Assembly (NCBI GenBank): GCA_001972305.1
Contig: BDDD01000923.1
Coordinates: 186,001-250,000, forward strand
Direction of reading: 5' to 3'
Source: Cephalotus follicularis
Lineage: Eukaryota > Streptophyta > Magnoliopsida > Oxalidales > Cephalotaceae
Length of the DNA stretch: 64,000 nucleotides
The number at the start of each line of letters is the position of its first letter. The stretch's first letter is position 1. Below the pieces are notes generated by a model. It saw nothing but the letters and a program-made list of their open reading frames with translations, searched no databases and was not told where the DNA came from. The position numbers and the translations under genes are program-made. Below are positions 5-59,777 of the stretch, in pieces.

Positions 5-2977
5 GTGATAGCCGAGGAGGTGAGTAAGCTATTACAAGCGGGGTTCATCAGGGAAGTGCGCTATTCTGACTGGCTGGCGAAGTCGGTCCTAGTCAAGAAA
101 ACAAATGGCAAGTGGAGGATGTGCATTGACTTCACAGACCTCAACAAAGTTTGTCCTAATGATCACTTTCCTCTCCCCAAGATTGATCAGTTGGTAGATG
201 CGACCTCGGGGTACAGAATGTTAACCTTCTTGTATGCCTACTTGGGGTATAATCAAATCCCCATGTATGGGCCCGACCATAACAAGACATCCTTTATCAC
301 TGATAGATGCATGTACTATTACAAAGTCATGCCCTTTGGATTAAAGAATGTCAGGGCAACCTACCAACGGTTGGTCAACAAGATCTTTGAGCCTTAGATC
401 GAGAAAAACATGGAGGTTTATATTGACGACATGCTCGTCAAGACGCCAGCAAGGAGCCCCCATATTAAAGACTTGGAGGAAACTTTTGGGGTGTTAAGGA
501 GATATAAAATGAAGCTCAATCCCTCCAAGTGTACTTTTGGGGTCACCTCATGTAAGTTCCTCGGGTTCACGATCTCAAGCAGGGGAATAGAGGCCAACCC
601 GAAGAAAATTTCAGCAGTGCGGAGCATGAGGCCTCCTCAGACCATCAAGGATATACAGAAATTGAATGGAAGAATAGCAGCCCTGATCAGGTTTGTCTTG
701 AAGTCAACAAAGAAGTGTCTCCCTTTCTTTAAAGTGTTGAGAGATCCTAAGGGATTTTCTTGGTCAGAAGAATGTCAAGCAGCCTTCGACAAGTTGAAAG
801 AATACCTGGCTTCCTCTCCTCTGATATCAAAACCTAAGGACGGGGAGGACTTGTATTTGTACCTTGCGGCAACAACGGGCGTAGTGAGTGCAATGCTTGT
901 CAGGGAGGAGGAGAAAGTTCAAATACCAGTATATTATGTCAGCAAAGCCTTGAACGATGTTGAGGGGAGGTGTCCAGAGGTAGAAAAATTCGCCTATGCT
1001 CTGATCATAGCAGCAAGGAAGTTGAGGTCGTACTTCCAAGCCCATACTATCAAGGTCCTGTCCGACCAACCACTGAGACAAGTACTAGCAAAGCCAGACC
1101 TCTCGTAAAGGCTGATCAAGTGGTCGGTCGAATAAGCCGAATATGATGTAAAGATTGAAGCTAGACCGGCAATAAAATCATAATTCTTGATAGATTTTGT
1201 AGGAGATCATACACTTACGGAATGTATGGAAGAAGACACCTCTGAAGAAGAGAAGGGGTTATGGAAGTTGTCCGTAGATGGCTCATCATGCGTCTTCGAC
1301 AGTGGAGCAGGATTGGTGTTGACAAGTCCAGATGGGTGGACCATAGAGTATGCTATGAGGTTTGGATTCAAGGCCACAAACAATGAAGCCGAGTGGGAAG
1401 CTCTCATTGCCGGGCTGACAATAGCGAAGCACTTGGAGGTTCAAAAAATAGAAACTTCCAGTGATTCTCAGCTAGTAGTTGGTTTGGCGAGTGGTGAGTA
1501 TGAAGCCAGAGAAGATTCCATGGCTAAATACTTAGCATACTTTCAGAGTTTAAGGTCAGCCTTCCAAAAGATTAGAGTCTTGAATGTGCCTAGAGCAGAA
1601 AATACCCGAGCAAACCAGTTGTCCAAGTTAGCAACAGCGGAGGAGTTGCAGGGAACTAAAACAGTGCTGATGGACTACCTGGATAGGCCCACCATCTCGG
1701 GAGCAGACGTGATGGACATAGATGCACCACAGGAGCTGAACTAGATGACTCTATTCATCAATTGGCCGAGGAACGGGATTCTACCCGAGGACCCCGTTGA
1801 AGCAAGAAAACTGGTGTACAGAGCAAACAAATACCAGCTCCGAGAAGGGATCCTCTACAAAAGGTCTTTCTCCTATCCTTTACTGAGGTGTATGACTCCC
1901 CTAGAGGCCGATTATGCTCTAAGAGAAGTCCATGAAGGAGTCTATGACAATCACACGGGGGGCAGAACATTGTCTCACAAATTATTGAGGCAAGGCAATT
2001 TCTGGCCTACCATGCACCAGGATGCCATAGACTTCGTGAGGAAGTGCGATAGATGTCAGAGGTACGCCAATATAAGCAGGAGGCCCTCATAACCCCTGAC
2101 ATCCATCACGGCCCTATGGCCCTTTGCACAGTGGGGGATGGACTTCGTTGGACCATTACTAGTGGCAACTCGGCAGAGGAAGTTTCTCATTGTGGCAGTG
2201 GACTACTTCACCAAGTGGGTAGAAACTAAACCCCTGGCCACAATCACAGAGAAGAACACGGAGAGCTTCGTATGGAAATCGATCATCTGCAGATTTGGAG
2301 TCCCGAGAGTAATAGTCTCAGATAATGGGAATCAGTTCGATTGTCAGGCTTTCCATTATTTTTGCAAGGAATGAAGAATAGAGCATAGGTTAGCCTCAGT
2401 AGCCTACCCCCAGAGGAATGGTCAAGCTGAGGTGATCAACAGAGAAATCATTTCGGGTTTGAAGAAGCGCCTTGAGAATAGCAAGGGAAGATGGACAGAG
2501 GAGCTACCAAGTGTATTATGGGCCTATAGAACCACTCATCGGACCACAACTGGAGAGTCCCCATACAGCCTTTGTTTTGGAGTTGAAGCTATGATACCGG
2601 TGGAAATTGGTGTACAGACATTAAGAGTTGTACATTTCAGCGAAGAAAATAACGAAGAAGGGCTAAGGACCCTCCTCGAATTAGTGGAAGAGCTCAGAGA
2701 CAAGGCATTTATCCAAGTTGCAGCATACCAACAGAGGGTGGGCTATTACTACAACAAAAGGGTACACCCCCAACCACTAAGAGAAGGAGACCTAGTCCTA
2801 CGTAACTCAGCCATTGCAGATCCAACCGGTACTAGAGGAAAGCTAGCCCCTAATTGGGAATGACCATACAAGGTGAAGAGTGTGCTCCGCCCAGGAAGAT
2901 TCAAACTTGAAACTCTGGAGGGCAGGGAGATTCCTAGAGCTTAAAATGCTGAACATCTGAGGAAGTACTACCAGTGA
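5..2977 (+). pseudogene. Tat pol remnant of element A (RT, RNase H, aRNase H, integrase)
   Basis: Reverse transcriptase is recognisable from the start of the window: WRMCIDFTDLNK near 113-150, and the catalytic YIDDML near 419-436. The ordinary RNase H follows to about 1108. A second RNase H of archaeal type lies at about 1250-1640 (VDGSS, NNEAEWEAL, SSDSQLVVG), which is the known hallmark of the Tat lineage. The integrase zinc-binding part (HEGVYDNHTGG, CDRCQR) lies near 1930-2060, the integrase core (WGMDFVGP, DNGNQFD) near 2130-2350, and its C-terminal part runs to about 2970. It is broken, and the domain order is normal for gypsy elements. It is read as a fossil, not a working gene. Confidence 0.9.
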
Positions 2978-4012: not shown

Positions 4013-6702
4013 TTAAGGGATGTCATGTACAATAGGGGGAGGTGGTGGAGCATCTTCTTCTGTCGGAGGAGGCGGTGGAGGATCCTCGACTCTTTGGTCA
4101 GTTGGAAGAGGTGGAGGATCCTCACCCATAGGCTCGAGATGGAGATCCTCTATCACCAGCGTAGGAGGGTCCACAGCCACGCTCTCAGGAGTAGGATCCT
4201 CGGCATCAATGCGAGAGACAGGATCCACGTCCAAAGGCCCAAGGGTGGTCTCCTCGGTAGGGGCAGTGAAGGGAACCATATCACGACCATTGGACGACCA
4301 CCCCAGTTCCTGGGCATCACTCTGCTCCTCGTTAAAGGCTCGAAAAGCTTTCTCCTTGGCATCGTCAACTCCATCAGGAAAGAAGTCATATTCAGCCACC
4401 GAAGGCCCACAAATAATGGACTCCAACAGAATCTCAGGATGATATTTGACCATGTTTCGACAGGAATAAAATCCCGGACGAAAAAGGACCGAATACTTCC
4501 TGAGGAGCTCCTTGTTGAAATCCTCAGAGGCCTTGAAATTGTCTACGACATTGGTTATAGCATCCTGAAACTCCGTTGAAGCTCTGAAGTTCTCCATGGC
4601 CCTATCCTGAACATCTCGAAACTCCAAGCCTTGAAGTCAAGGATGGGTCTCTCCACAGCAACACTGGTTCGAGCATCTGCGAGTTCTTGGAGCTTCTCTA
4701 GTTTATCATTGTAAGCCTTCAGCTTTTCATTGAGGGTGATGCCCATGTTGACTGCTGTCAGCCTCAGCTTTTTCTCCCTCGTTAGATCTTGGAGGGCTTT
4801 ATCTCTCTCGGCAGTGATATGTTCCTGGACCCTAATCACATCCTCGAGTTGAGCCCGTAACACGTCCTACGACCTCTTGAGTTTGGCGTTTTCAGCCCCA
4901 ATTTGCTCAAGCATGGCGCTCTCCTGATCAGTCATCTCCATCAAGAGCTGGGCATCCACCATGCCCTAAAAAAAGGAATACAAGGTTAATGGGAAGTTGA
5001 AGGTTCACGGATAGCGAAAGGTTAGAAAAATATTACTAACCCTGAAGAAACTTTGGAAGAGGTGAGTCCAGAGGTGGCAAGTGTCCCACTCCTCCCTCAC
5101 TTCCAACTCATGGGGAAAGAGACCCGCCTTGCCCAGTGCAACGGTGACCCCTGGCGTCTTCAAGCTCACCCTTGACCTGCCAAGTCCTTTGAGAATCTTG
5201 CTGACCTTCTCCATCTCCCGGGAAGGATATGTGAGGGCAGGTTCTTGGGAACCCTCCTCATCTGATTTGTCCAGAGGCGCATCTCCCTCCTCTGTCCTCT
5301 GCCTCATCGACGGGTGAACAAGTTCGTCAGCAGTAGGCCGTTTACCCCGGGCAATCTCGGCCCTTGTCTCCAAAGTTCTTGCCTCCACAGTCACATTGGT
5401 CCTTGCCTCCTCGGTAACCCTGACCTGAACCTCCTCGGCCACCTCAGCCCTGGCCCTTGCATCCTCGGCACTTTTTCGAGCACGCTCCTCGGCCCTGGCC
5501 TTATCAGCAGCCACCTTGGCTGCCCCTTTTTGCGCCCCGGCAGTGGTTTTCTCGAGGGCCTTCTTTCTCTCAAGGGCCTTTTCTTCCTGAGGGCCTCTTG
5601 CCTCTGTTCCTCAGGATTCACCACCCTGACTTTCTCCCGGGCAGCCCTGACAACGTCCATGGTCGATTCTTGATTTGTCATCTCTGCAGGAGATAGCAAA
5701 GAAGTGGTTAGTAACACATCAAGAACAAATAATGAAGCAAAAATAAATACAAGACTCTAGAGGAAAGCAAAGTACGACTCTCCCCTTCAATGGTATCCGA
5801 GGATGCAAGTTCACCTCGGATATCCTGGTCTCTTCCTCTCTCAACCCCCATGGGAACCTCCTCTGCATCCAATTCCAGGCTAACCCTACTGCCCGGGGAC
5901 ATGCTTAGCTCAAGACTCCGCAAGCGGTCCTCAAACACCACCACAACCACTTCCTCGGACGCCAGAGTAGAAAGTCTCCCCAGGTCGGCCTTTTCTTTCC
6001 TGGTAAAAAACGTCATCTGGTTAAGACGCACGGTATCCACGGTGTTGTTCCACGAGCATGGTGTGAAACCGGGGAGATTCTTTACCATAAAGTATTTCTC
6101 CCTCCAGCTTTGACGGTCTTGGTGTTCTCCGCCAGCAGCTTGTTGCGTCCCACGCGAGATTTGAAGTAGAAGCCGCGCTTCTTAGGAGAGGCATTCAAGA
6201 TGTGGAATTCCTTAAACAACCCCATGGTGGCTGTCACCCCCGCCTCGAGGCACATCACTAGGAAGCCAATAATGAATCCCCAAGACTGGGCTTGTAGCAT
6301 AGAAGGGTGGATCTGGTAGTGTCTGAGGATGGTGATGGCAAAAGGATGTAGAGGAAGCCTCAACCCGTGCTCCAGAGCGTCTTGGAAGACCACAAAATAG
6401 CCATGTCTGCTCTCTGTAATTGTCCAGGGATCTGTTGGGATCTCAAGGTCCAGGCTGCCAGGGATGGAGTAATCTTTGACTAACTCAGCCAGCTTCTTCA
6501 AGCGTATTTTGGTCTGGTCAAAGTGGGTCCTAAAGATTTGGACCCCAGCCTTTGTCGCTGCGACATTAGGAGCCCCGACAGCCGAAGCCTCCATCTCCAC
6601 CTCCATATTGAGGGGACGCTCAGCAATGGTGACCCCCACGGATGCTCGGGCTACGTCTTCGGGACATTTGATAATCCTTCTGGTTTGTTTAGTCCTGGCC
6701 AT
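4013..6702 (-). pseudogene. Antisense gene of element A, Met-ARTKQT start, gypsy-type transposon domain
   Basis: Coding blocks on the minus strand run from 6702 down to about 4013, opposite to pol. The protein starts MARTKQTRR, like the histone H3 tail. An N-terminal domain follows (near 6450-6150: GYFVVFQDALEHGLRLPLHPF, read as its first 20 residues only, then HPSMLQAQSWGFIIGFLV). It resembles the plant 'putative gypsy type transposon' family (PF04195-like, recalled and not searched). A charged Ala/Glu/Arg-rich region that looks like a coiled coil lies near 5500-5200. A C-terminal block holds PGFYSCRNMVKYHPE near 4480-4430, and a Pro-rich tail ends it. A 75-bp intron-like segment (4966-5040, GT...AG on the minus strand) matches ones in elements B and C. 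Known Tat elements can carry antisense ORFs in this position, but their function is unknown to me. It is broken at a few places. Confidence 0.75.
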
Positions 6703-6930
6703 GGCTTCTCAGAGAGAGAGGAAGATGAGGATACAGTGGACATGTGAAACTTTGGGGAACTCAAACAAAAAATAATAACAAGCTGAAGAAATTTAATCAC
6801 CTGAGAGCTTGAGCGAAGAGGAAAACGAAGAAGTTAAGCTTGAAGATTAGGAAAGCAAGAGACTCACAGAGATCTAGGGTTTTTGGGAAAGCAAGAAAGC
6901 GTAAAGATTTTCCTCCCAAGAGAGAGGGGG

Positions 6931-18850: not shown

Positions 18851-19625
18851 CGAGTCAGAGGAAGCTCATTAACTCCAGCGACAATAATAGGTGAACTCCT
18901 CCTCGGCATTAGTGCCGAGGAGTTCCCCCGTGGCGGCTTTGCAGAGGTCATCCTCCTCGGCACCAGTGCCGAGGACCTCCGCTTGGGCGTCCGTGCCGAG
19001 AACCTCCTCTCCAACTGTACTGTGGAAGACCTCTTCCTCGGACCATTGCGAGCAACACAATGCCCTCGGCACAAGCCCTTTAAGAAGCTCTTAACGTTGA
19101 AGACCTAGAAGCGGACAAGAGACCATAGGACCTATCTTTCTTCGCCCTCTACAGTCATCCTCCACAGGATGAGGCCTTGACATCCGCCTACATTCCATGG
19201 GTTTGTCTCCTCAGATATGGAAAGATAGGATATGGTAAAAGACCTATAAGGAAAGTACCAACAAATCCGGCGGAGATAAAGGGAAATGACCGAGATCCTC
19301 AGCATTTCCTTAGGGGATAACAATCACCTTCGTTTTTCATGCTCATACAGCCACCAACCAACTCTATAAATAACAGTTTCACAAACTGTACAAAGGTCAG
19401 CCCTTTTAGCACCCTAAAGAATCCAGTTTTCTCTGTGCATTTACTAACTTGAGCGTCGGAGTGTCCCCGGGAGAACAGCCTCCTGGACCTTCTACCTTTG
19501 TGCTATATTTGTGCAGGGATTCTCAACCATCAAAACACCTTTCTCGGACATATTCAAGCGTTTCCCTAAACAAATGAAAGTCCTCCACGTAGGGTACTGT
19601 TGAAGGGAGATTTTCTGTATCAACA
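18851..19625 (+). repeat. 5' LTR of element B, incomplete
   Basis: It ends CTGTATCAACA and is followed at once by the primer site. Its left end lies inside Copia I pol. Compared with the 869-bp 3' LTR of this element, about 95 bp at the beginning are not present. Two strong hairpins are inside: CTCCTCGGCA with TGCCGAGGAG, and CCTCGGCAC with GTGCCGAGG (about 18895-18975). Confidence 0.85.
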
Positions 19626-19645
19626 GTTGGCACCGTCTGTGAGAA
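19626..19645 (+). other. Primer binding site of element B
   Basis: TTGGCACCGTCTGTGAGAA follows the LTR directly. The matching site in element C is TTGACACCGTCTGTGGGAA. It is read as the tRNA primer site by position; the tRNA itself is not assigned. Confidence 0.75.
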
Positions 19646-22009: not shown

Positions 22010-25000
22010 CCATACTAGAGAAAGGGAAGGACAAGGTACTCCCTATTGCAAATGTGGAGTTCAGAGGAGACGTGGAGTCTGAGCATCCACAGCCTGTTGA
22101 ATACGTGATCCAATTGCCCCTAGCAGAGGGCGACAATGAAAGAGTCTTCCAAGTGGGCTCACAGCTTGGAGAGGTGGAGAAGGGGGAATTAATAACATTC
22201 CTCCGAAATAACAAAGATGTTTTCGCCTGGTCGGCAGAGAAAGTCCCTGGGATCAACCCAAACGTAATGGTTCACAAGCTAAGTGTGGATCCAATGAGGT
22301 CTCCGACTAGGCAGAAGAAGAGGAACTTTGCTCCTGAGAGACAACAGGCAATAGCCGAGGAAGTGAGCAAGCTCTTGCAGGCAGGGTTCATAAGGGAAGT
22401 GCATTACTCAGACTGGCTGGCGAACCCAGTCCTAGTCAAGAAAGCAAATGGTAAGTGGAGGATGTGCATCGACTTCACAGACCTCAACAAAGCTTGTCCC
22501 AATGATCACTTCCCTCTCCCAAAAATAGATCAGTTGGTGGACGCGACCTCGGGCTACAGAATGTTGAGCTTCTTGGATGCCTACTCGGGGTATAATCAAA
22601 TCCCCATGTATGGGCTCGACGAGAACATGACAGTCTTCATTACAGACTAAGGGATATATTGCTATAAGGTCATGCCTTTTGGTCTGAAGAATGCAGGAGC
22701 GACGTACCAACGACTGGCCAATAAGATTTTTGGGCCATAGATTGGGAGAAACATGAAGGTCTACATCGATGACATGCTCGTCAAGATCCCATCCAGAAGC
22801 CCCCACATCAAAGACTTGGAGGAAAAATTTGAGGTACTGAGAAGGTACGACATGAAACTTAACCCATCCAAGTGTACTTTTGTGGTCACCTCTGGTAAGT
22901 TCCTCGGATTCATGGTCTCCAGCAGAGGAATAGAGGCCAATCCAGAGAAGATCTCAGCGGTTCAGAGTATGAGGCCTCCCCAAACCATCAGGGATGTTCA
23001 AAGACTGAATGGGAAGATAGCAACCCTGAGCAGGTTCGTTTCAAAGTCAGCAGAGAAGTGCCTCCCATTCTTTAAGGTGCTCAAGGATCCCAAGGGATTT
23101 TCCTGGTCAGACGAGTGTCAAGCAGCCTTCGACAAGTTGAAGGAATACATGTCTTCCCCTCCTCTGATATCAAAACCCAAGGACAAGGAAGACTTGTATT
23201 TGTATCTTGCAGCCACCTCGGGTGCAGTGAGTGCAGTGCTAGTTAGGGAGGAGGAGAAAGTTCAAAAGCTAGTGTATTATATGAGCAAGGCTTTGAATGA
23301 TGCTGAGGGGAGGTACCCAGAAGTAGAGAGGTTTGCCTATGCTCTGATCATAGCGGCCATAAAACTGAGGCCATATTTTCAAGCCTATACAATCAAGGTT
23401 CTGACTGATAAACCACTCAAACAAGTTCTTGCGAAGCCTGACACCTCAGGAAGATTAATCAAGTGGTTAGTCGAACTAGGCGAGTATGATGTGAAGTTCG
23501 AAGCCAGACCAGCCATCAAATCACAGGTCTTGGCCGACTTTGTTGGAGATAATACACCTACGGAGTGTATGGAAGATAACCCTTCCGAGAACGAGAGGGG
23601 GTTATGAAAGTTGTTCGTGGATGGCTTCTCTTGCAGCACTGGCAGTGGAGCAGGGCTAGTGTTAACTAGTCCAGATGGCTGGACGTTGGAGTACGCTTTG
23701 AGGTTTGGATTTAAAGTTACGAACAATGAAGCTAAGTGGGAAGCGCCGATAGCCGGGTTGACAATTGCAAAGCATTTGGAGGTGCAAAAGATAGAGGCCT
23801 CAAGTGATTCTCAGCTAGTGGTTGGTTTGGCGAGTGGAGAGTACGAAGCCCGAGAAGATTCAATGGCCAAATACTTATCCCATTTTTAGAGTTTGAAGTC
23901 AGGCTTCGAAGTTCTAAGGGTTTTGAAAGTTCCCAAAGCAGAGAACGCCAGAGCAGCCCAGTTGTCAAAACTAGCAACTGCCGAGGAGCTGGAGAAAAAC
24001 CAAACCGTGCTACTAGACTACCTGGACAGACCCACCATCTCTGAAGCAGATGTGATGGATATTGACATACCACAGGAGCCAAACTAGATGACTCTCTTTA
24101 TCAACTGGCTGAGAAATGGGATCTTGCCCGAGGACCCAACAGAGGCGAGAAAATTGGTGTACAGATCAAACAGATTCCAGCTCTGAGATGGGATCCTCTA
24201 CAAAAGGTCATTTTCCTTTCCTTGGCTGAGATGCTTGACTCCTTTAGAGGCTGATTATGCTCTAAGGAAAGTCCATGAAGGAGTTTGCAGAAGCCACACA
24301 GGAGGCAGGACATTGTCCCACAAGCTCTTAAGGCAAGGCTACTACTGGCTAACCTTGCACCAAGATGCTATAGACTTGGTGAAAAAATGTGACAAATGCC
24401 AGAGGAACGCAAACATAAGCAGAAGACCTTCTCAACCTCTGATGTTCATCACTGCCCCATGGCCCTTTGCACAATGGGGAATGGACTTCATTGGACCACT
24501 ACCCGTGGCGACATGTCAGAGGAAGTTTCTCATTGTAGCAGTAGATTACTTCACCAAGTGGGTGGAAGCAGAGCCTTTCGCCACAATCACAGAAGCAAAC
24601 ACATAGAGTTTCATTTGGAAATCCATTATCTGTAGATTTGGAGTCCCGAGGACAATAGTCTCAAACAATGGTAAACAATTTGACTGCCAGGCCTTCCGTG
24701 ACTTTTGCAAAGAGTGGAGAATAGAGTATAGACTTGCCTCAGTGGCCTACCCCCAGAGCAACGGTCAAGCCGAGGTGATCAACAGAGAAATCATTTCGGG
24801 CTTGAAGAAGCGCCTTGAAGATAGCAAAGGAAGATGGACAGAGGAGCTACCAAGTGTACTATAGGCATATAGGACCACTCCTCGGACCACAACTGGTGTG
24901 TCCCCATATAGTCTTTGTTTTGGGGCTGAAGCTATGATACCGGTAGAGATTGGTGTGCAATCACCAAGGATTGTGGACTTTACTGAAGAGAATAATGAAG

Positions 25001-32244: not shown

Positions 32245-34693
32245 TTAAAAGTTTGTTACAAGCAGACGACTAAGCCGTAGGAGCACCGCTGGAAGGATCA
32301 TCCTTTGGAGGGGGAGGAACGAAATCCACAGCCGTAGGATCTTGAGGAATGACAAGTTCCGAGGAAGGCACCAAAGATGAAGAGGCCAAGCCAGGATCCG
32401 AAGGAAGGATGGTTGCCTCTGGTGGCACATCATCACCTGCCTCCCCTCCCTCATCGACCACTAAGTTGGAGACAAGTCCAACTACCTCTTCTACTCCCTC
32501 GACCCCTTGGTCGGCTCTTTCTTCCAAGGCTTCCTTAGCCCTTACCTCCTCTGCCTCATAACCCTCGGGATAGTAGTCGAAGGCTTTGGAAGTCGAGCAT
32601 TAAGCAACCTCACCCAAAGGAACCTCGAGATGAAGAGTTACGATCCAGTTCCGGCAAGTGTAGAATCCCCGACGATAGTACTCGGCGGATTCCTTAAAGA
32701 CTTCATCACCAAAAGCTTCTGAAGCTTTGTAGCCCTCCACGGAGGCCTCCACCAAACACTGGAATTCGTCTGAAGACTTGAACTCCGTCAAGGCGTCCTC
32801 TACTGCCTTAGCCCGTCTCTCCTAATCCTTCTTGCGGTAGGCCTCGAACTTGTTGTCCAGACCTCGGAACCGCTCGCCGATATTGGAGAGGTCCTTTTGC
32901 AGTTGATCCCTCTCTCGGATGGCCTCGTTCCTCTCCTCCTCAAGAGATTCCTGGGTCTTGAGGACTTCCTCAAGTTGGGCCTTTGCCGAGCGAGAGGTCA
33001 CTGCGAGTTCCATCAACTCAGCCCTCACCTTGTCATACCTCTCTAGGATGATCGAAAAGTTCTCGACCAAGAAGTGATGGTCATTCAGAGCCTGCCAGAA
33101 AGGTGAAAAAGTCAGAGGAAAAGCAGTAGGCGTATTCCAAAAGAAGTAGAAGATATCAATTACCCTAAAGTGGCTTTTCAAGGAACTGTGGATCAAATTC
33201 TCGTTGTTCTAATCTTTCCTCGCTTTGAGCTCGTCCGGAAAGAGACACAAAGAGCTGAGAGCAAAGGGGACTCTGGGGTTGTTCAGACTTGTCCCCCCAT
33301 TCCCTACCACCTCCAGCTCCTCAATCATCTGCTCTACGTCGCGAGAAAGAGGCAGTATAATTAGGCTCCGAGAAGTCCTACCCAGAATAGATTCGAGCTC
33401 AGACTCTGAAATGCCCTTTCACTTCTTGCTCGGAGGCTCAGAAGGCGCATCCGAGGAATGCCCCCTTGCAGGCCTCTTGGCTCCTTTGTCCTTTGCCACA
33501 GCTGCAGCTTTCTTTATTTGTTTAGTCCCCTCGGCGATAGCCTTTGCTCTCTGTCTGGCCCCCTCGGAAGCTTCCTTTTCTTTTTGCTTCGCCTTCTCGG
33601 CAGTTGATCCTTGCTTGGATCCTTCGATAGGCGTTGGCTTCGTTATTTTGGTAGCCTTGAAGAGGGAATCAAAGTCGCGCCGAGAAGCCATTGCTACACA
33701 AAAAGAAGAGATCACAAGGTCAAGAGCATGGCAGTTAATAATGACAGAGCATATGAAATTAAAAAGCTCAAATTGGAGGAGATAAAGGCTTTATACAGTT
33801 TTTTCTCGGCACATGGGGCATGGGTCTATCTTAACCTCCCACTCCCTCTGAGATGTCCACCTCGGCTCCATCCAAGTGTAATCATTGGCTGGGGACCATG
33901 CTCAGCCCGGCCTGGAGCAGATGATCCTCACGCACCGTGGAATTCACCTCCTCGGGCTCCCGGGCCAGGAGTTTGTTGAGGTCCACTTTCTCCACCAAGG
34001 TCAAACGGGACCTCTTGTTCAGAGGTGGGGTATCATGGAATCACACAAGGGGGAGGGAGTGAATCCTTCGAAGTTTTTTTTTATCAAGAAGTACCTCCTC
34101 CTCCAATTCTTAATGGATTTGGTAGGGTTGAACAAAAGTTTTTTGACACCAGAACGGGACTTGAAAAAGTACCCGTGCTTTCCTGGCGAGGCCGAGAGGA
34201 CATAGAACTGTTTAAAAAGAGCCACGATCGTACTCACCTCTGACTCGATACACTTGACAAGGAAGCCTATTATAAAGCTCCAAGATTGAGGTTGAAGAAG
34301 AGAAGGATGGAGACAAAAATTCTCCAGGACCGAGATGGCAAAGGAGGGTACTAGAACCCTCAAGTTGTGAGAGAGCGCACATTCAAAGACCACGAAGAGG
34401 CCCTCCCTACTCTCTGTAACCATCCGAGAATCCGAGAGGAGACTAAATCTCAACCCATCAGGGAAGTTATACGTACAGGAAAGCTCTAGCACCTCATCGC
34501 GAGAGAGAGTGATAACACCAAAGCAATTCGAAGTTGGGTTGTTAGCCTCGGCGGTGGGGGCAACAAGGTCACCCACCGCAGCCCCTAGACTGCCTTCGGA
34601 GGAGAGGGAACTTTCGGTGGTGGGAGCCACCATGGCCAAAGGTTTGACTTCTAAGGGAGGAGAAGACCTACTGGTTTGCTTAGTTCTAGCCAT
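32245..34693 (-). pseudogene. Antisense gene of element B, Met-ARTKQT start
   Basis: On the minus strand the start is MARTKQTSRSSPP at 34693. A PF04195-like domain follows (GLFVVFECALSHNLRVLVPSF, first 20 residues alike, and HPSLLQPQSWSFIIGFLVKC), then a Lys/Glu/Ala-rich coiled-coil-like part (about 33715-33420), a further coiled-coil part (about 33090-32800) and a C-terminal block with YYRRGFYTCRNWIVTLHLE (about 32690-32620). A 72-bp intron-like segment (33092-33163) sits where elements A and C have theirs. The N-terminal 45 residues after ARTKQTSR differ from the other two copies. It is broken at several places. Confidence 0.72.
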
Positions 34694-34901
34694 TTACGCT
34701 AAAACGAAGAGAAGAAAAGACTAAAGAAAACCTAGCTCAAACTGAAACAGCGAGAAAACGACGAGCACTTACCAAGAACTTCGACAAGAAAATGGAAAAA
34801 CAAGGGAGATTGGGAAGCACTAGAGATTTGGCTAGCTCTCAGCAAAAAGATGGAGATTAGAAATGCAAAAGGTGAAGACTTTTTTCATTGAGAAAAAGAT
34901 G

Positions 34902-35237: not shown

Positions 35238-36106
35238 TGATATGGGAAAAAATATATCTATACCAAGAACAACACGTGTCCCCTACAGGCGTGGCCAAGA
35301 CTCTAGGAACTTTAAGGCTTATATAAGAGCATGAGTAAGAGGAATCTCATTAACTCCAGCGAAAATAATAGGTGAACTCCTCCTCGGAATCAGTACAAAG
35401 GAGTTCCCCCGTGGAGGCTTTGCAGAGGTCGTCCTCCTCGACACCAGTGCCGAGGACCTCAGCTTGGGCGTCCGTGTCGAGAACCTCCTATCCAACTGTA
35501 CTGTGGAAGACCTCTTCCTCGAACCATTGCGAGCAACACAATGCCCTCGGCACAAGCCCTTGAAGAAGCTCTTAACGTTGAAGACCTGGAAGCGGACAAG
35601 AGACCATAGGACCTATCTTTCATCGCCCTCTATAGTCGTCCTCCACAGGATGAGACCTTGACATCCGCCTACATTCCAGGGGTTTATCTCCTCAGATATG
35701 GAAATATAGGATATGGTAAACGACCTATAGGGAAAGTACCAACAAATCCGGCGTAGATCAAGGGAAATGACCGAGATCCTTGGAATTTCCTTAGGGGATA
35801 ACAATCACCTTCGTTTTTCATGCTCAGACAACCACCAACCAACTTTATAAATACCAGTTTCACAAACTGTACAAAGGTCAGCCATTTTATCACCCTAAAT
35901 AACCCAGTTTTCTCTGTACATTTACTAACTTGAGCGTCGGAGTGTTCCCGGGAGAACAGCTTCCTGGACCTTCTACCTTTGTGCTCTATTTGTGTAAGGA
36001 TTCTCAACCATCAAAACACCTTTCTCGGACATATTCAAGCATTTCCCTAAACAAATCAAAATCCTCCACGTAGGGTACTGTTGAAGGGAGATTCTCTGTA
36101 TCAACA
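35238..36106 (+). repeat. 3' LTR of element B
   Basis: It starts TGATATGGG after the polypurine tract (CCATGGGGGCATA, 35225-35237) and ends CTGTATCAACA, 869 bp in all. It carries the extra hairpin block seen in the 5' LTR, more diverged here. TTTATAAATACC near 35844 may be the TATA box. Confidence 0.9.
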
Positions 36107-37835
36107 CTTGTGTATCCTAATCTAATTATCAAGCTGACTATGGTATGTATCCGAGTTGTCCTGGCCGAACTACTCTTGCTGGGTATATATGTTTACTGAG
36201 AATATGTAACGTTGTTGTAATGTATCTATGTTGATTATTAATGCGTATCCGAGAAGTCATTGTTATGTATTCCACCATTGATGCATTCTGACTAATCTAA
36301 GCAGGTATTGTGTGTGCTGTGTATATATATATATTTTCCTGACCAAACCACTAGAGTTGTGGTATTGTGGGTGTTGTGTATATCTTTTCTGACCAGACCA
36401 TGCGAGTTATGACCAGGGGCAGTGGCTATGGGGCATCTCTCGCAGTGTTATCTTGCCTCATTCTTTGGCAGTGTTGCCTGGTATTCTTCTGGGGAGTGAC
36501 TGTTTTGATACTGATTCTATTTCTCTACAGCCGAGCAACATCTCTATTTGTACAGTTGTAATACATTTTGATAATTTTAGTTGGGAGGTTATTCAGAGGT
36601 TCTCGGTAGTAGCTATTGTGCATATTCCGCTGAACATATTAGTATGTTATGCTATTGATATTAATACTCCTTTTCTATTTCTATTTTATGTATCTCAGGC
36701 TAAGAGCAATAATTATGAGACCTTTATAATAGTGTGCTCTTGCACTGTGTAGTGTTTATTGGTCTGATATATATATAGTCTTTGTGATAATAGTAGGGAC
36801 TGGTGCAGTTGAGTGGTTGGTCTGGGTTGGGGTATGGTATTCTTCTCTGGTGTTATTCTCTAATATTCTTCTATGGTATTCTACTATGGTTTGTACCCGA
36901 GCATGACATTTATTCTTTGATATTCTTTCTCTATTATTCCTCTTTGGCATTTTCCTTTGGCATGTGTGATTCTTAAACTGTTGTAAAGATGAGTTCTTTC
37001 TCTTTCATTTTGGTGACAGTCGGGCCTTGGGCAGTTTGAGTGTATGGTCTGTCTGGAGGTTCCATAGATATTTCTTCTTGTCAATTCTTGTCAACATTAT
37101 GCGGATTTCTTGGATTATTAAAGTGGTGACATCTACTATATTTCTTTCTCTTCTTATTACATTTTAACTGATTTTATTTCAGTCTAGTGATAATTAGGCA
37201 TGCTAGAGGAGTCTAGGCTGATAATTCAGATTAAGCTTTCATTCCTTCAGTGAGACTTTTGGGAATTTATTATTCATTGATCAGAGTTATGTATTTATCA
37301 TGTTTGTAATGGATATTATATTTAGTGGAACCTCAGAGATGATTGAGGAAGTGGACGTAGGCACCTTTTATGCCAAACCACTATAAAAAGTTTGTGTCTC
37401 TTCTTTATTTTTACTTTACTAATATTGATAGTAAATCTGACTAAATATAAAATTTTTAGTCTTGTGGCAAAACGGATGCTTGATTGAAATGAATATATAA
37501 ATATAAATGTCCCCTGACAGTTAATTGGTGCTGCTTTCTATCAGGTTCACATATTTTAGTTTTATGACAGTTAATTCTTTTATAAACAATTCTTTCAAGG
37601 GACGGTGGACAATTTATATTACATTAATAGCTTGTTTGACAGAGATATATTTTCTTCTTCTCTATTATGCAATGTGGGATGCCAAGTTGACTGGTCAACA
37701 TATATCCAAGTTCAAAGGTTTAAATACCCAGTGTTCAAGTAAGATTTATTGAAGGGTAAAGGAAATCAGCAAAATTCTGTCTACGTAACGGCTCGTTTGG
37801 AGATGGTTCGAGTAATGTTGGAACGGGTCGTTACA
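36107..37835. mobile_element. LTR-like remnant, unclassified
   Basis: This lies between the end of element B and the 5' part of Copia I. It has no gene. The right end GGGTCGTTACA is a common end of plant LTRs. Near 37353-37385, GTGGACGTAGGC...CCACTATAAAAA is a motif seen in plant Copia LTRs. A (TA)n run lies near 36324-36340. The left end is not defined, and no target duplication was found. Confidence 0.4.
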
Positions 37836-46786: not shown

Positions 46787-49277
46787 TGTTGGAATTAGGT
46801 GTCCCTGCAAGCCACGAGAGGCTACACGTACACTCTGATTCAATGTTCTTAGTTCCAGTTATGTTCTATTGTGCATATATTTATTTATATTGGCAAGAAT
46901 ATATGGCTCATCCCAACCAACCAAAAGCAATAGAATAGTTATTCTTAATTAACTGTATGCCATATATTGCCCTGTCACAACAAAGGGTTGGATCTCTCGC
47001 CAGGGAGGCCATGAGATTGAGATCCTTATTCCCTGTGACTAAACTTGTTCCAAGTCATAGGTTCACAATCTTAGGGCCATAGTAGAACCGTGTTAAAGAC
47101 TTGCCACATTAAGCTTGCTCCCAAGGAGGGAGGATGGATCATCTCATGGACCATTCAGTTTTATCCTAAAGCTAATATGGGGTGCATGCATGGTTGCATG
47201 ATGCTGAACCGACCCACCAATAGGATCCCTATTTGGATAGTCTATACCCATGTCAATAGGGGTTCCTATGGTCTCGGTAGTGTATAGTCTATGGTGACTA
47301 GTAGGTCCACACCTACGATGTTCCTTTGACCTGAGCGGCTAGCATGCATTGTGTGAGGACTGCTTGACTTTGATTTCTGTCTTCCCTAGCACTAGCCACG
47401 TGCTGGCAAAAGGGTTGTCTTTGGGTCTTGTGGAAGCTGCATTAAGATGTATGAGCTAGCGCACAACAAGGAATCGTCACACCCGGGCAGAGGGTGACCA
47501 GCTCTATTTGATCTATGTACGTTGTAGACTTTAAAGTCCTGATCAGGAAAAGGCAGACTGGAAACGAAAGGTTTCCGTGGGAGGTCTACAGTTAGTCTCA
47601 GTGCATTCACGGATTTTATAGTATCACGACTAAATCTAGGGGTGACATTCATCCAAACCCTAGACCATTGATTGGAGCTAAGTATGACGAGGGAAACACT
47701 ACACATATGTCGATGACTGGACAAAGCGACTGGTTATTCGGTCCTTGATTGATAGACGTGGTAATACACAAATCCAGGGGTGACTGGAAATCACACCGGG
47801 GCTATTCTAGTAGTCGGTGACTATTAAAGTAGTCGTACCAGATGACGAGGTGCTCTGGGAATTTATCATCATACTAGAGATCGACAGGCTTTCGGGTCGC
47901 GCCCGATTATTGGAAAAGTGGGGCATGCTGCACACATACTCGCTTGGTGGTAAAACTAGTTTTTAACTAGTATATATTAATTAGACATTTGTGGTTTGTT
48001 CATCTCTCCGTAATTTGCCTTTTTAATATATAGAGATTAAATGCCGGAGCATGATTTAATTTTATTAAATCAAATTAATGAAAGAGATAGTCTTTAATTA
48101 ATTGGGAGAGAAACAAAAGTTAAATTGAAAAAATTTTAAATAATAAAAGGAGAATGGAGTTTTTTAGCATAATGAGATTTTTTTCTTTTATGCTAATTGG
48201 ACTTAAAAAGGAATTTTTTAATTCTTTTTGTCCATGACACCCCAAAACACAGGGTGCGTTTTTGGCCAGGGGAGTTCAACGCGTTCAACGCGCAAGGAGC
48301 ACGCACGGCCGGGGAAGAAGACCGACGCTTCGCGCTGGTGGCCGGGATGAAGCGTCCGTTGGTCCACGGTATGCCTCCTCCCTTCTCTCTCCCGTTTTCT
48401 CCCTTCTTCTTCTCTATTTCTCTCTTATGGGCAGTGACTCATTTTTGCCGTCATGCTGCTCCCGGCGTCTCTTCCACCGTCGGTGATCACAGTGGGTGGA
48501 GCCCTTCCATGGCTCTATCCATTTTGATCTTAGTTTAGCATTTTCCCGGTCATTTTCTGGACGGTTTCCGTGCGTTGAGTAGACCCTGTTGACTCAGTGC
48601 GCCTTGCGCCGTCTAGTCTAGCGTGTTGGTATGTCGGGCTGAAGGAGTTGAGGTGTTTGGTGGCTTGGCGGCCGCTGATGGTGAACGGCGAGTCAACTCC
48701 GTGACTCGCCACCGACCGTTCTTAGAGTTCCAGGCCGAGTCTGGGCCACCGGTGTGAAGATAGGGTGGTGAGCATCCAAATATGTGAAGGCCGGTCAATG
48801 GCGAGTTGAACGAGATTCACTGAGTCAGAACTCAGTGAGTCGACGCCACTATTCGTCGTGTTACGGCGCGGTTCCCGGCAAGTCTCCGCCAACAATGGGT
48901 AGAGCTGTTTTTTTAGAGTCCAGTGGTGTCAAGATCGGACCTAACGTGGACTGTCAGAAATCCAGCGATGGTACTGGTGACCGGCTGTTGCTACTTCAAG
49001 CTTGTAGCGGCAAAGTGGTGGAGCCTACAACGTTGGTATAGTCGCTTCCCTTATGCTTTTATATATACCGATATGGTTTCGGTTTGGTTTTAATATGCAT
49101 GCTTGTTTTCGTTTTTGTTCGATTGAATATTAAACAAAGATCCTAGGCTTTTCTATTTGGTACTAAGATGTCAGTGTGAACCTTGACTTCCTGTCTTGAT
49201 ATTTTTGAAAAATTAAAATTATACACACTAGCGTCCTAGGACCAAATTGACCGGGAACCCTTGCCAGGTTTCCAACA
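46787..49277 (+). mobile_element. Long solo-LTR-like insertion, 2491 bp, target duplication CTTTC
   Basis: The ends are TGTTGGAATTAGG...GTTTCCAACA (TGTTGGAA inverted at the end as TTCCAACA), flanked by CTTTC at 46782-46786 and 49278-49282. No coding region of transposon type is found inside. The TGTTGGAA start recalls Copia LTRs of Angela/Tork type, but the length is great for one. The right half (about 48240-49040) is richer in G+C than the left. A non-autonomous element without coding is an alternative. Confidence 0.8.
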
Positions 49278-51104
49278 CTTTCGAGGTGCTGAGGAGATAC
49301 AAAATGAAACTAAATCCTTCTAAGTGTACTTTCGGGGTCACCTCTAGTAAATTCCCCGGATTCATGGTCTCAAACAGAGGAACAGAGGCCAATCCGGAGA
49401 AAATTTCTGCAATTCAGAGCATGAGGCCTCCTCAGACTATCAGGGACATACATAAATTGAATGGAAGAATAACAGTCTTGAGTAGATTTGTCTCAAAGTC
49501 AGCAGAGAAGTGTCTTCCTTTTTTCAAAGTATTGAGAGATCCTAAGGGGTTTTCTTGGTCGGATGAGTGTCAAGCAGCTTTCGACAAGTTGAAGGAATAC
49601 CTGGCTTCCCCTATTCTAATATCAAAACCTAAGGATGAGGAAGACTTGTATTTGTACCTTGCGACAACAACAAGCGCAGTGAGTGTAGTCCTTGTCAGGG
49701 AAGAGGAGAAAATTTAGAGGCCAGAATACTACGTTAGTAAGGCTCTAAATGATGCTGAAGGGAGGTATCCTGAAGTTGAAAATTTTGCTTATGCTCTGAT
49801 TATACCAGCAAGGAAGTTGAGGCCATACTTTCAAGCCCACACTATCAGGGTCCTGTCCGACCAACCACTAAGACAAGTCCTAGAAAAGCCAGATGTTTCG
49901 GGAAGATTGATCAAGTGGTCAGTCGAGTTGGGCGAGTATGACGTGAAGTTTGAAGCCAGACCAGCAATAAAATCTCAGGTCTTGGCTGATTTTGTAGGAG
50001 ATCATACACTTATGGAGTGTATGGAAGAAGACACCTCTGAAGAAGAGAAGGGGTTGTGGACGTTTTTCGTGGATGGCTCCTCCTGCATCTCGGACAGTGG
50101 GGTAGGATTGGTATTAACTAGTCCAGATAGGTGGACCTTGGAGTATGCTCTGAGATTCGGATTCAAAGCCACAAACAATGAAGCCGAGTGGGAAGCTCTG
50201 ATTGTTGGACTGACAATTGCAAAGCACTTAAAGGTTCAAAAAATAGAAGCCTCCAGTGATTCTCAGCTGGTAGTTGGTTTGGTGAGTGGAAAGTATGAGG
50301 CTAAAGAAGATTCCATGGCTAAGTACTTAGCACATATTCAAAGTTTGAAGTAGGCCTTCCAAGTGATTAGAGTCTTGAAGGTGCCTAGAGCAGAAAATGA
50401 CCGAGCAGACCAGTTGTCCAAGTTAGAGACAGCGGAGGAATTACAAAAAAATCAAACCGTGCTGATGGACTATCTGGATAGGCCTACCATCTAGGAAGTA
50501 GACGTGATATACATTGATGCACCACAGGAGCCAAGCTGGATGACTCCATTTATCAATTGGCTAAGGAATGGTGTTTTGCCCGAGGACCCTTCGGAGGCGA
50601 GAAAACTGGTGTACAGAGCAAACAGATATCAACTCCAAGATGAGATCCTCTACAAAAGATCTTTTTCTTTTCCTTGGCTGAGGTGTTTGACTCCCTTAGA
50701 GGCCGATTATGCTCTAAGGAAAGTCCATGAAGGAGTATGTGTCAACCACACAAGGGGTAGATCCTTATCCAACAAATTGTTGAGGCAGAGCTACTTCTAG
50801 TCGACCATGCATCAGGATGCCATAGACTTAGTGAGGAAGTGTGATAAGTGTTAGAGGAACGCTAATATAAGCAGAAGACCCTCAGAGCCTTTGACATCTA
50901 TCACGGACCCTTAGCCCTTTGCACAATGGGGGATGGAGTTCGTTGGACCACTTCCGGTAGCAACAGGGCAGAGGAAGTACTTGATTATGGCAGTGGATTA
51001 CTTTACCAAATGGGTAGAAGCCGAGCACCTGGCCACAATCACAGAGAAGAACATGGAAAGTTTTGTATGAAAATCAATTATCTGTAAATTCGGAGTCCCG
51101 AGGA

Positions 51105-53250: not shown

Positions 53251-55597
53251 ACTCAGAAGAATTAGGCATGAAGGCATTGAGATGAGGAGGGCTCAGGACT
53301 TGATCCTTGGCTTCTCCCGAGAACAGAATCAGGGCACTCGGTCACTCAACCCCGGTTTGCTCCTCTACCTCCCGAGCCAAATGTTCTTGCTCCTCATAGG
53401 CCTCACTAGCTTCCCTTTCTTTGTCGTCAACACCCTAGGGAAAGAAGTCAAACTCGTTCATTCCCGGGTGGCAAACCACAGAGTCAAGGGAAACATCCAA
53501 TTGTCGAGCAATCAAGTTTTGGCAGGTGTAAAAGCCCCGACGATAGTACACTGTGAACTCTACGAAGACTTCATCATCAAAAACAGACGAAGCCTTGAAG
53601 TCCCCCACAACGGCCTCCATCATTGCTACAATTTCATCAGAAGTTTTGAAATCCAAGAGGGCTTTGTCTACCGCCTCCTTAGCCTGAGCCACTTCTCCGT
53701 CTCGGTAAGTGGAGAACTGCCTTTCAAGATCTCTATGCATTTCGCCCACACGCAAAAGCTCATGCTCAGTCTTCATCCTCTCGGTCTTTTCCTTTGCCAA
53801 TGCCTCGAAGGCCTGCCTCTTTTCCTCTAAGACGGACTCTTGAGCCTTAAGCACTTCCTCCAACTGTGCCCTAGCTTCCTTAGAGGATTTTTTGAGCTCA
53901 GCATTTTTCGTCTGAAGTTGGTCAATTGTTGCACATTCATCTTTGGCATTCTTGAGTAGGAGGTAACCATCGGCCATGGCCTGGAAAAGAAAATGTGGGA
54001 CCAAAAGCAAATTGAAAGTCTACACAAAGAAAAAATTAAAGGATGTTAGTAACCCTCAAGTTGCTCTAGAAGAGATGGGTCCATATTTGGCTGACCAACC
54101 AACCCTCCCTAGCCTCAGCCTCCGCGGGTAAGAGGCTTAACCTTTTGAGCTCGACAGCTAACCCCGGAGTTTTCAGGCTTACACCCGATTTACAGAGTTA
54201 AGTATATATCTCGTTAACCTAGCCGAGATCCACAGGCAAATCAGGGCAAACGGGTTAACGATGGGTCACTTCAAAAGCATGTTCGCGAGAGGCTCCCGCC
54301 CCATCTTTTCTTCCCTTGTGTTTCTTGGAGGCACGAGGAGGTGGATCGATGGTCGTGCATTTTCCACGGGCAATCTCAGCCCTAGTGGCCTCGGTCGCGA
54401 CAGCTGCAATAGCCTCATCGGCTTCTCTTCTCTCTGCTTCCTCGGCTGCCATCCGAGCAGCCCGTTCCTTGGCTCTCTACCTTTTATCCTGGGTAATGAC
54501 CCTTGACTTCCTCTGGGAAGCTCTCAAAACATCATCAGTGGAACGGTGATGAGCCATTGCTACATACAACAATGAAATTAGTTATTCAGAAGTATAAGTT
54601 ACATAAATAAGAGAGGACTGAGCAAAGAGCCAGAATTAGAGGAGATGAAGGCTTAATACAGCTTTCTCTCTCGGCCTCAGCCCGAGTTTCAGGTCCTTTT
54701 TGGCTGTCCTTAACTCTCTCTCTCTCTCTCTCTTTCTATGCCCGCTTGGTTCTCTTCCTCATCATCATGATGGAACCGTCGGCCCACGGACATGCTTAGT
54801 CCAACCCGACAAAGGCGGTCATCCTAGACAGTATGATTCACCCCTTCGGGTTCCAAAGCAGAGAGTCTTGCCAGGTCGACCTTCTCAGCCGATGATAGTA
54901 CTGACCTCTTGTTGAGTTTTTGAACATCTAAGGAGTTCGACCACAGACAAAGAGTGAAATCAGGAAGGTTTCTGACAAGAAAGTATCTCTCCCTCCAGCC
55001 CTAGACGAACTTGGTAGGCTCCACTAGAAGCTTCTTGGTCAGTCCAGGACGGGACTTGAAGTAGTACCCGCGCTTGCCAGGGGAAACTGCCAGAAGGTGG
55101 AACTCTTTGAAGAGTCCGACGGTGGCATCCACTTCGGATTCCAGGTATTTCACCAAAAATCCTATAATGAAGGCCTAAGACTGTGGCTGGAGCAGTGCAG
55201 GGTGGATCTTGAAATGCTCCAGGATCTCAATAGCGAAGGGTGGAAGTGGGAGTCTCAGATTGTGCTCCAAAGCATCCGAGAATACCGGAAAAAGCCCTGG
55301 CTTGCTCTCGGTCACTTCTCTGGGATTGCTCGGAAGGTCGTATACCAAGCCCCTTGGTAAGACATATTTGTGGGCTAGTGCTTTCACCTTCTCTCGGTTG
55401 AGCACTCTTTTTTCGAAATCGACCCTGAACACTTGGGTCCCCGTTCAGGTAAAGGAAGTTCCGGGAGCACCCGAGGCGGCAGCATCTATCTCAACCTCAG
55501 CGTCTAGAGGACGCTCAGCTATGATTACGCCCTCAATCAGGCGGCTCGCCACGTCCTGGTCGTCAACCTGTCTGGAGGTTTGTTTGGTTCTAGCCAT
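53251..55597 (-). pseudogene. Antisense gene of element C, Met-ARTKQT start
   Basis: The minus-strand start is MARTKQTSRQVDD at 55597. The following residues (IIAERPLDAEVEIDAAASGA) match the copy in element A (TIAERPLNMEVEMEASAVGA). The PF04195-like domain lies at about 55430-55130 (GLFPVFSDALEHNLRLPLPP, HPALLQPQS). Basic and Ala/Glu-rich parts lie at about 54550-54260, and a coiled-coil part at about 53970-53690. The C-terminal block (YYRRGFYTCQNLIARQLDVS) is at about 53550-53490. A 73-bp intron-like segment (53981-54053) is shared with A and B. It is broken at several places. Confidence 0.72.
54714..54733. repeat. (CT)n microsatellite
   Basis: A run of CT units within the antisense gene of element C. 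Confidence 0.8.
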
Positions 55598-55822
55598 TTG
55601 GGATTTCTAGAGAGAGAAAGAAGACGAACGGGCTGAGAGAAACCCTAAGGAAGGCCGGTTTGTTCTTCAAAAATAAATAAAATAGGGAAAGAAGCTCACC
55701 AGAAATTGTCGAAGAAGGCTAGGCGACAAACTGATTGGATTTCTGGAGATGACAAGAATAAAAAAATCAAGAACACTAGGGATTCAACGAAGCGTAAAGA
55801 GACTTCTCTGAGAAAACAATGC

Positions 55823-55832: not shown

Positions 55833-56118
55833 CGAGGGGTCAAATTCAGACCATTAGATCTCACAGTGGCTTAACGGTTGAGATCAAATCAATTAATTCG
55901 GGTGCAAAAAGTGACTAGTTAACGCACGGGAAATGAAAATACATGAGTGTTACGGACGTTTGCTCTTATTTTCTTAAAGTAATAACGAGGTTGGGCTAAG
56001 CAGTGCAGCCCAATTGCCAAATTAGGCTCAGTTTGTAAGTTAAAGCCCCGCTCAAAGCCAAGCCACGAATGGTCTCCATCCTCTGCCAAGTCTAAAAAAT
56101 GAAGACCATGGGGGCATA

Positions 56119-56608
56119 TGATACGGGAAAAATCATGTATATTTTCAGTTCCACGTGTCCTCGGGAGAATAGGCCAAATGTCCTCCATGGTTATTGACAC
56201 GTGATCGGGTGTCTGTCAAGATAACGCATAGTAATGTCATGGCGCCAAATCCGGTGGAGAATCAGGGAAATGCCCGAGATCCTCGGCATTTCCTTAGGGG
56301 AACGCACATTTCTAACTATCATGCAAGGCAGTTACAATCATCTCTTATAAATACAGGAATCGAAGACAAAAGACAGGTCCGCCATTTTCATACACTAAAA
56401 GAACATTGTGATTGTTTTCTCTGCCTCTGTCTAACTTAAACATCGGAGTGTCCCAGGGAGTAAACCCTCATGGACTTACGATCAGTTTGCATTCTTTGTG
56501 CATGGAAGACAATCCACCACCCATTCTAGGAGCAGTCACAACGTTTCTCCTAACAAATCAAACCCTTACACGTAAGGAACTGTTGAGGGGAGGATTTTTG
56601 CATCAATA
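56119..56608 (+). repeat. 3' LTR of element C
   Basis: 490 bp, starting TGATACGGG after the polypurine tract (CCATGGGGGCATA, 56106-56118), followed by the target duplication ATATT. It is copied at 59778-60272 by the duplication. Confidence 0.95.
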
Positions 56609-56613
56609 ATATT

Positions 56614-57582
56614 ATATTGACTTAAAAAACATTAATGATCTACATAAATAAATTATCAAACTCAAAAGTAAATTTTATAAAATCGTAAATCACATGTATG
56701 ATTGGACGAGCACCTAAAAAAAATTATTATTATTTAGTTGGATAAACAATAAGCTATTTTCATGGGTAAGTTTGGGCACAATACTGTACTAAAATTCGTC
56801 TATTTGGTCAAGTTAAGGGCATGTTATCCATGTCCGACCTAGTAAACTTAAGAGAAAATTCCTTGAAGGTTGCTCAGAGGTACCCTCATTTATTAGTTTG
56901 TGTTGCGTATTAACAAATTATTGTAGCAAAGTTGGTATCGCTGAGTAGGCCATAATTCTGTTTATACATAGTCATTTAAAAAGGGGTGATGTTACACGTT
57001 TTAACATTTTACCAATTTTTTTTATCACAGTTGATATGTCACTACACATACATATCACTTGGAGAATAAAACGTATGGATGAGTCATATTATTTTTCATT
57101 AGTGAATGAATGTGTACATGAGTAAGGTCACATCAATTGAGATGAAAAAATTGATAAAAGCATTAGAATGTGTCACATTACTCATTAAAAGTTAAAAACC
57201 ATTTAGATAATGAAAACAATAAATATCTGTCTTACGAGTTACCATTGACTTGTCTTTTATTTTTACCACATTTCCCTTCTTTACGATAACTTAAAGAAAT
57301 GAACTTAAATAAAGGGGCAACTTAGGTCCCATTTGATAATGTTTTTAATTTTTATGTTTTGTATCATTTTGTTTTCAAATTATGGAAACATGAAACACGT
57401 GTGATAATTATCATTGTGTTCAAAATTTTTGAAATAACAAACATGTTTCGTAACGACCAAAGAGAAAAATAAATACAAACATAAATCTTATCAATATTGA
57501 ATATATATACAAGTTTAAATATCAAACTAATAAGTCAAAATCACACAATTACACACACACACACCTCCCCAGTGTGTATGAG
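56614..57582. other. AT-rich flank of element C, no gene seen
   Basis: No coding region or transposon end was recognised. An (AC)n run lies near 57551-57564. It is repeated at about 60275-61245. Confidence 0.6.
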
Positions 57583-58162: not shown

Positions 58163-58224
58163 TATATAAGTTAAAAATCAAATATATATGAATAAGAAAT
58201 AAGATATACAAATAAAAAAACTTT

Positions 58225-59618: not shown

Positions 59619-59777
59619 CATTTAAAGGGATGGCAAAAAGCCAACAACGATGTTGGGCTAAGCAGTGCAGCCCAATTGCCAAATTAGGCTCAGTTTGTAC
59701 GTTAAAGCCCCGCTCAAAGCCAAGCCACGAATGGTCTCCATCCTCTGCCAAGTCCAGAAAATGAAGATCATGGGGGC

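Follow-up and report, generated by a model that had tools for sequence, protein, structure and literature searches.

The window analysed here, a stretch of 64,000 nucleotides of the Cephalotus follicularis genome, carries three retrotransposon elements, which we call A, B and C. Their pol pieces lie on the forward strand and comprise the end of a reverse transcriptase (RT) with RNase H in element A (410..1744; PF00078, PF17919, PF17917 and PF13456), RT and RNase H in element B (22054..23607; PF00078, PF17919 and PF17917), and only RNase H-type pieces in element C (49247..50353; PF17919 and PF13456). Self-BLAST revealed a pair of long terminal repeats (LTRs) in element B, the 5' LTR at 18852..19629 (+) being 93.6% identical to the 3' LTR at 35333..36110 (+). 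This pair frames both pol and a gene on the opposite strand, whose ATG (34693) stands 640 nt before the first base of the 3' LTR. Element B also contains, in the interval from pol to the antisense gene, a nested copia-type gag_pre-integrase piece (27668-28624, +). Beside element A, a 457-aa open reading frame (ORF) at 9081-10454 (+), with a match to the glycosyltransferase family PF05637 (E 6e-63), is probably a host gene. Two 2.65-kb direct copies at 55981-58624 and 59643-62286, 97% identical by self-BLAST, each contain a near-palindrome of ~590 bp (57581-58163 in the first).

On the reverse strand, each element has a gene whose predicted product opens like the tail of histone H3. Translation from 6702, 34693 and 55597 gave MARTKQTRR in element A (6676..6702), MARTKQTSR in element B (34667..34693) and MARTKQTSR in element C (55571..55597, also read in the sequence itself), in agreement with the original prediction. 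The frame that follows is open for 206 aa in A (6082..6702, -) and 224 aa in B (34019..34693, -); in C it survives as a remnant with three in-frame stops in the first 200 codons (54998..55597, -). The prediction had also held that the shared residues are written with different codons: five of the seven shared codons (A1, R2, T3, K4 and R8 in H3 numbering) indeed differ synonymously, with 0 residue changes, and those for Q5 and T6 are the same in all three window copies. Compared pairwise, these copies had a pS of 0.6-0.8 and a pN of 0 over codons 2-7 and 9, and a pN of 0.44-0.71 over codons 10-30.

Downstream of this start lies the domain PF04195 (Transposase_28, TRP28), at 6193..6393 (-) in element A (Pfam, E 1.7e-13) and at 34196..34393 (-) in element B (residues 101-166; E 6.3e-6). 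It was the only family found in the antisense proteins of A and B (P0001 and P0002), in which no histone family matched at E<=1; PDB chains gave 0 matches to P0002 at E<=10, and no histone fold was detected. The expectation of a gypsy-transposon-type domain rather than a histone fold after the start was thus confirmed for both proteins. A profile search against the PDB yielded nothing beyond ~25-residue matches to a kinase (best E 0.09), which we took as chance. An AlphaFold model of the domain (P0003 and 19 further rows) had a mean pLDDT of 44.5, too poor for use. The A and B proteins are ~42-45% identical overall; the two families keep the residues of the opening peptide while their next ~50 residues are unlike, which makes the peptide the conserved stretch within the N-terminal region, again as predicted.

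Judged by layout and domains, the elements are of the Retand type (Tat clade, Ty3/gypsy), with the known TRP28 antisense gene of that lineage. LTR-type RT and RNase H stand on the sense strand (RNase H-type domains only in C), and an antisense PF04195 ORF lies between pol and the 3' LTR (over the Pfam cut-off in A and B, with the LTR placement taken from B). The published Retand TRP28 antisense ORF (Vicient 2025, PMC11963269) occupies the same site, between pol and the 3' LTR, and has the same PF04195 domain. According to the available text of that paper, 97% of Retand clusters have an antisense TRP28 gene, TRP28 is predicted to bind DNA but has no known role, and the antisense protein of Grande, a relative, is nuclear.

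The H3-like start is widespread in the genome. Across the 1.577-Gb assembly, a degenerate DNA pattern for MARTKQT had 2551 exact matches, compared with 2 for the reversed control. All 28 of the pattern sites that were read (of 2551) were antisense genes of element families and 0 were histone H3 genes; these motif-chosen sites served only for gene identity, codon variety and the leader. A pattern for the domain core had 3469 genome matches (control, 0). Among 100 listed core sites, 37 were preceded on their own strand by a perfect MARTKQT pattern at a distance of 388-409 nt (control placements, 0); the remaining 63 may belong to families that lack the motif or to copies that have decayed. Conversely, of the 82 MARTKQT sites listed in the same contigs, 37 had an intact core.

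We then drew a sample of PF04195 loci blind to the start, consisting of 110 loci from the best 150 of 9886 candidates, and called a start recognisable if at least 5 of its 8 residues were present at the homologous place. The A-type domain (DALEHG) was found at 43 of the 110 loci, and 41 of these had a recognisable start (the misses were L073 and L105). Other domain types, mostly CYVDALKSGL-like, made up 65 loci, none with more than 4/8 motif residues, and L048 and L059 represent a further PF04195 type (2/110). The full 8/8 motif occurred in 31 of the 110 loci, against a maximum of 6 for shuffled motifs. Many of the other-type loci, which ranked highest by Pfam score, contained stops, and some had readable starts of the form MASPS.., MSSVP.. 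or MVSRT... A separate B-type sample, 20 loci spread down 150 scored matches, had a recognisable start in 20/20, with at least 6/8 residues in 19 and 8/8 in 10. The original prediction had named absence of the start from most related ORFs as evidence against itself; within families A and B the start is present in 61 of 63 loci, whereas for PF04195 antisense genes at large the prediction is not supported, as the start was seen in 0 of the 65 other-type loci.

The closest annotated proteins to those of the window are from Cephalotus follicularis, at 68-82% identity. Protein searches with E to 1e-3 and to 10 matched 18 distinct proteins and recovered no relative outside this species (one search at E<=1e-3 scored only the best 7998 candidates by word sharing), and no relative was present in the viral contigs scanned. 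As annotated, 0 of the 18 Cephalotus relatives have the motif start; three of them, aligned to the full genes, begin at later methionines.

We measured constraint in 41 copies of family A and 20 of family B, and in indel-free subsets of 34 and 14. Over codons 2-7, pN/pS was 0.146 (A) and 0.107 (B), compared with 0.41 and 0.32 over codons 10-39. In the indel-free copies of A, the ratio was 0.12 at codons 2-7, 0.307 at codons 10-60 and 0.134 from codon 101 on, the domain part, and the corresponding values in B were 0.069, 0.324 and 0.154; pN alone was 0.027 (A) and 0.041 (B) at codons 2-7 versus 0.069 and 0.097 at codons 10-60. Tighter constraint at the start than at its neighbours, on which the prediction also depended, was therefore found in this genome for both family A and family B, with pN/pS 2.6x (A) and 4.7x (B) below that of codons 10-60. 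Six-codon windows from codon 10 onwards had a ratio as low in 50/159 cases (A) and 13/116 (B), and a pN as low in 47 of 159 and 32 of 116, so that within a family the start is constrained like the conserved domain and not uniquely.

Over codons 2-7, families A and B differed with a pS of 0.948 and a pN of 0.053, while codon 8 had a pN of 0.886, and all four bases occur at the third positions of A1, T3 and T6 among the copies tallied. Residues were kept in 53 (A1), 59 (R2), 58 (T3), 60 (K4), 57 (Q5), 58 (T6) and 59 (R8) of the 61 copies. Neither R2 to K nor K4 to R occurred in any of the 61, though each is a single transition away. H3 position 7 varies among K, R, A and S, rarely others, and K9 is present in 0 of the 61 copies. 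Residue changes within codons 2-7 are confined to single copies or pairs, as expected from decay after insertion. The sequence of the start, its spread through the genome and the constraint on its amino acids are direct observations. They indicate that the H3-like sequence is kept by selection on its residues, the overlapping sense frame being the caveat to this.

That frame has its third positions in common with the antisense gene and is open for 100 codons in element A (6473-6772, +), 117 in B (34371-34721, +) and 143 in C (55179-55607, +), and it reads VC[L/F]VLA over the motif. Conservation of the start might accordingly be due to a sense-strand protein, or else to recent shared descent or a signal in the DNA or RNA. 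The sense frame is open at 3/3 window sites and for more than 100 codons in 27/34 A and 10/14 B copies, about as the antisense gene is (open in 26/34 and 11/14), and its pN/pS at codons 2-7 within families is 0.15 (A) and 0.12 (B), next to 0.12 and 0.07 for the antisense frame; the within-family pN/pS alone leaves the strand undecided. Between A and B, however, the sense frame fares worse (0.22 versus 0.04), because codon changes at T3 exchange Leu and Phe there. This comparison between families, the PF04195 domain and the location of the motif at the start codon favour the antisense gene, in whose frame both the domain and the motif start lie. The sense frame may be a second, overlapping gene, or its openness may simply follow from the antisense codons. 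As for descent or a nucleic-acid signal, all copies come from one genome and from related elements, and a CT-rich tract with splice-like signals adjoins the start; but between A and B the synonymous sites in codons 2-7 are almost saturated (pS 0.95, pN 0.05), and with all four third-position bases in use, neither recent descent nor a fixed signal in the DNA explains the conservation. We regard this group of explanations as very improbable.

A further origin to consider is capture of the start from a host H3 gene and its retention as a passive relic. Family B comes closer to H3 than A or C, with an exact MARTKQTAR start in 7/20 copies and a serine at the place of H3 S10 in 18/20. The similarity to H3 nevertheless ends after 8-10 residues, histone matches are nil, and so low a pN/pS across families would not be maintained in a relic, which makes this origin barely credible. 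Capture from H3 followed by selection, in contrast, is compatible with a mimic.

Whether the motif stands at the very N-terminus depends on the start codon. Consensus scores alone place a putative leader intron ahead of the ATG in each window element (all on the reverse strand): in A at 6705..6800, with donor CAG/GTGATT and a weak acceptor-like AG ending 2 nt before the ATG; in B at 34699..34772, with donor TTG/GTAAGT and an acceptor-like TTTTAG ending 5 nt before it; and in C at 55607..55699, with donor CTG/GTGAGC and an acceptor-like CTCTAG ending 9 nt before it. With a good donor defined as a score of 6 or more, a good 5' splice donor was found 62-107 nt upstream of the ATG in 10/12 copies (not all of them independent families, as winB, L005, L006 and L007 are alike), compared with 0 or 1/12 in three more distant upstream stretches used as controls. 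Best donor scores averaged 7.76 against a shuffled maximum of 4.09 (12 copies), and acceptor-like sites (score at least 5) ended in the last 30 nt in 7/12 copies versus 0 to 3/12 elsewhere. These signals suggest that a putative leader intron sets the ATG near the start of a second exon. TATA-like sequences did not cluster upstream of the ATG in 52 copies.

An in-frame upstream methionine lies in the same open frame in 44 of the 52 copies, so that the exact N-terminus is clear in some families only. These 44 comprise 41/41 copies of family A, in which the upstream ATG is 42 nt away across a serine-rich stretch, plus L001, L003 and L004. The window copies of B and C (winB and winC) and L002, L005, L006 and L007 have 0 ATG in the 130 nt upstream, and the upstream ATG of the window copy of A (winA) and of L008 is not in frame. 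In family A, 37/41 copies are without an AG in the last 45 nt before the ATG, which, together with the upstream in-frame ATG, means that the motif may be internal there. The leader codons of family A, however, had a pN/pS of 0.70 versus 0.15 at codons 2-7, so strong coding constraint begins at MARTKQT. This hints, though not decisively, at an untranslated leader, and translation may also begin at the upstream ATG of family A.

These results bear on a more ordinary account, in which the start is a conserved functional N-terminus (serving in nuclear import, in contact with nucleic acids or as a kinase site) whose likeness to H3 is coincidental and unrelated to H3 readers. The peptide is short and basic, and the Grande antisense protein is nuclear by the available text of PMC11963269; codons 2-7 are constrained like the PF04195 part, so ordinary functional constraint would do, and an internal position of the motif in family A would suit this account as well. 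A basic patch should, however, allow exchange of arginine and lysine, which is exactly what R2 and K4 do not show (0/61), and T3, Q5 and T6 are retained nearly as strictly while position 7 drifts. We estimate, with average residue frequencies, that a start of the form A-R-T-K-Q-T-x-R would arise by chance at ~1e-9 per protein. On this evidence we consider coincidence unlikely, if still deserving of serious attention.

We lean instead towards the antisense TRP28 protein being a selected mimic of the H3K4 tail. Minus its starter methionine, the protein would copy H3 residues 1-6 and 8 (A1 R2 T3 K4 Q5 T6 x R8), and in part of family B all of H3 residues 1-8 are copied; a poorly conserved linker would connect the tail with the PF04195 domain, for which DNA binding has been predicted by others. 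Methionine before alanine is normally trimmed from proteins, so ARTKQT would be left at a free N-terminus, the form recognised by PHD fingers, LSD1-like proteins and other H3K4 factors. We infer that the motif sits at such a free N-terminus and acts in the nucleus as a mimic of the H3K4 tail. Readers, writers or erasers of H3K4 would take the antisense protein for H3, and the mimic could either titrate these factors or, via its TRP28 domain, recruit them to the DNA of the element. If H3 residues 1-8 are copied under selection, this would point to a precise function, namely the engagement of H3K4 readers or modifiers.

The likeliest partners would be H3K4 demethylases of the JMJ14 or LDL1/2 type, or PHD-type readers of K4; this choice is the least sure step of the proposal, and we make it with considerable doubt. 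With such partners occupied, H3K4 methylation would stay high and RNA-directed DNA methylation (RdDM) of the element would be weakened. Consistent with such a route, the available text of PMC3820799 states that in Arabidopsis full RdDM at some loci depends on the H3K4 demethylases JMJ14 and LDL1/2, and that the Pol IV recruiter SHH1 has a preference for tails methylated at H3K9 and unmethylated at K4. Because K4 is fixed and K9 missing in the start, K4 enzymes or readers suit the mimic better than SHH1. The scenario in full, a plant retrotransposon clade with a dedicated antisense H3K4-tail mimic fused to a DNA-binding domain, with a spliced leader that frees the N-terminus, and subverting the host's reading or erasing of H3K4 so that the elements stay active, is one we offer tentatively, as a possibility that we would not yet call probable.

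Mimicry might also serve integration rather than escape from silencing, with the tail binding chromatin-bound readers and so tethering the pre-integration complex. Other plant Ty3/gypsy lineages find H3K9me through an integrase chromodomain, as described in the available text of PMC12786077 and PMC12477314; these chromovirus chromodomains are likewise a retrotransposon device acting through the H3 tail, but they read H3, whereas the antisense TRP28 protein would copy it, the opposite device, and would supply the H3 ligand side instead. The protein, however, comes from a separate antisense gene and not from pol, and we think a targeting role quite improbable.

As a mimic of the H3K4 tail, the antisense protein would join a known class of device. 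Histone mimicry occurs in viruses, and the C-terminal ARSK of influenza NS1 is reportedly one such mimic. Like the TRP28 start, ARSK reproduces a short part of the H3 tail, around K4, in a parasite protein; the start differs in opening its reading frame as the tail does in H3, in lying on the antisense strand of a retrotransposon, and in being longer, at 7/8 residues (8/8 in part of family B). SNAG-type N-terminal H3 mimics, found in host transcription factors, bind LSD1; they too are N-terminal peptides that replace the H3 tail, with sequences different from ARTKQT.

The words 'histone' and 'mimic' have 0 occurrences in the main text of PMC11963269, histones and mimicry have 0 in the available main text of PMC7264820 on these antisense genes, and no such H3-like start is described in the available text of PMC9043364. 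In the open-access literature searched, by title and the start of the abstract, we found no description of an H3-like start or of H3-tail mimicry by a retrotransposon, and of four exact starts only MARTKQT was found, whereas ARTKQTSR, ARTKQTRR and ARTKQTKR were not. What is new is thus an H3-tail start on an already known Retand antisense gene, which we did not find described in the texts searched; nor did the available portions of these open-access texts describe histone mimicry by a retrotransposon against its host's own silencing. If the mimic is real, TRP28, which occurs in the Retand elements of both monocots and eudicots, would serve to anchor a chromatin decoy, and H3K4 methylation would be linked with escape from RdDM. 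The role of the Retand antisense genes is described as unknown in the available text of PMC11963269, and the H3-like start suggests a testable one.

For the published Retand TRP28 ORFs, the main text of PMC11963269 describes no H3-like start, and in the Cephalotus genome it is present in some PF04195 types only. In the distant PF04195 family represented by L059, a longer open frame includes MARAKQTSE ~230 nt before the domain; this sequence is possibly a variant or ancestor of the motif, or else chance.
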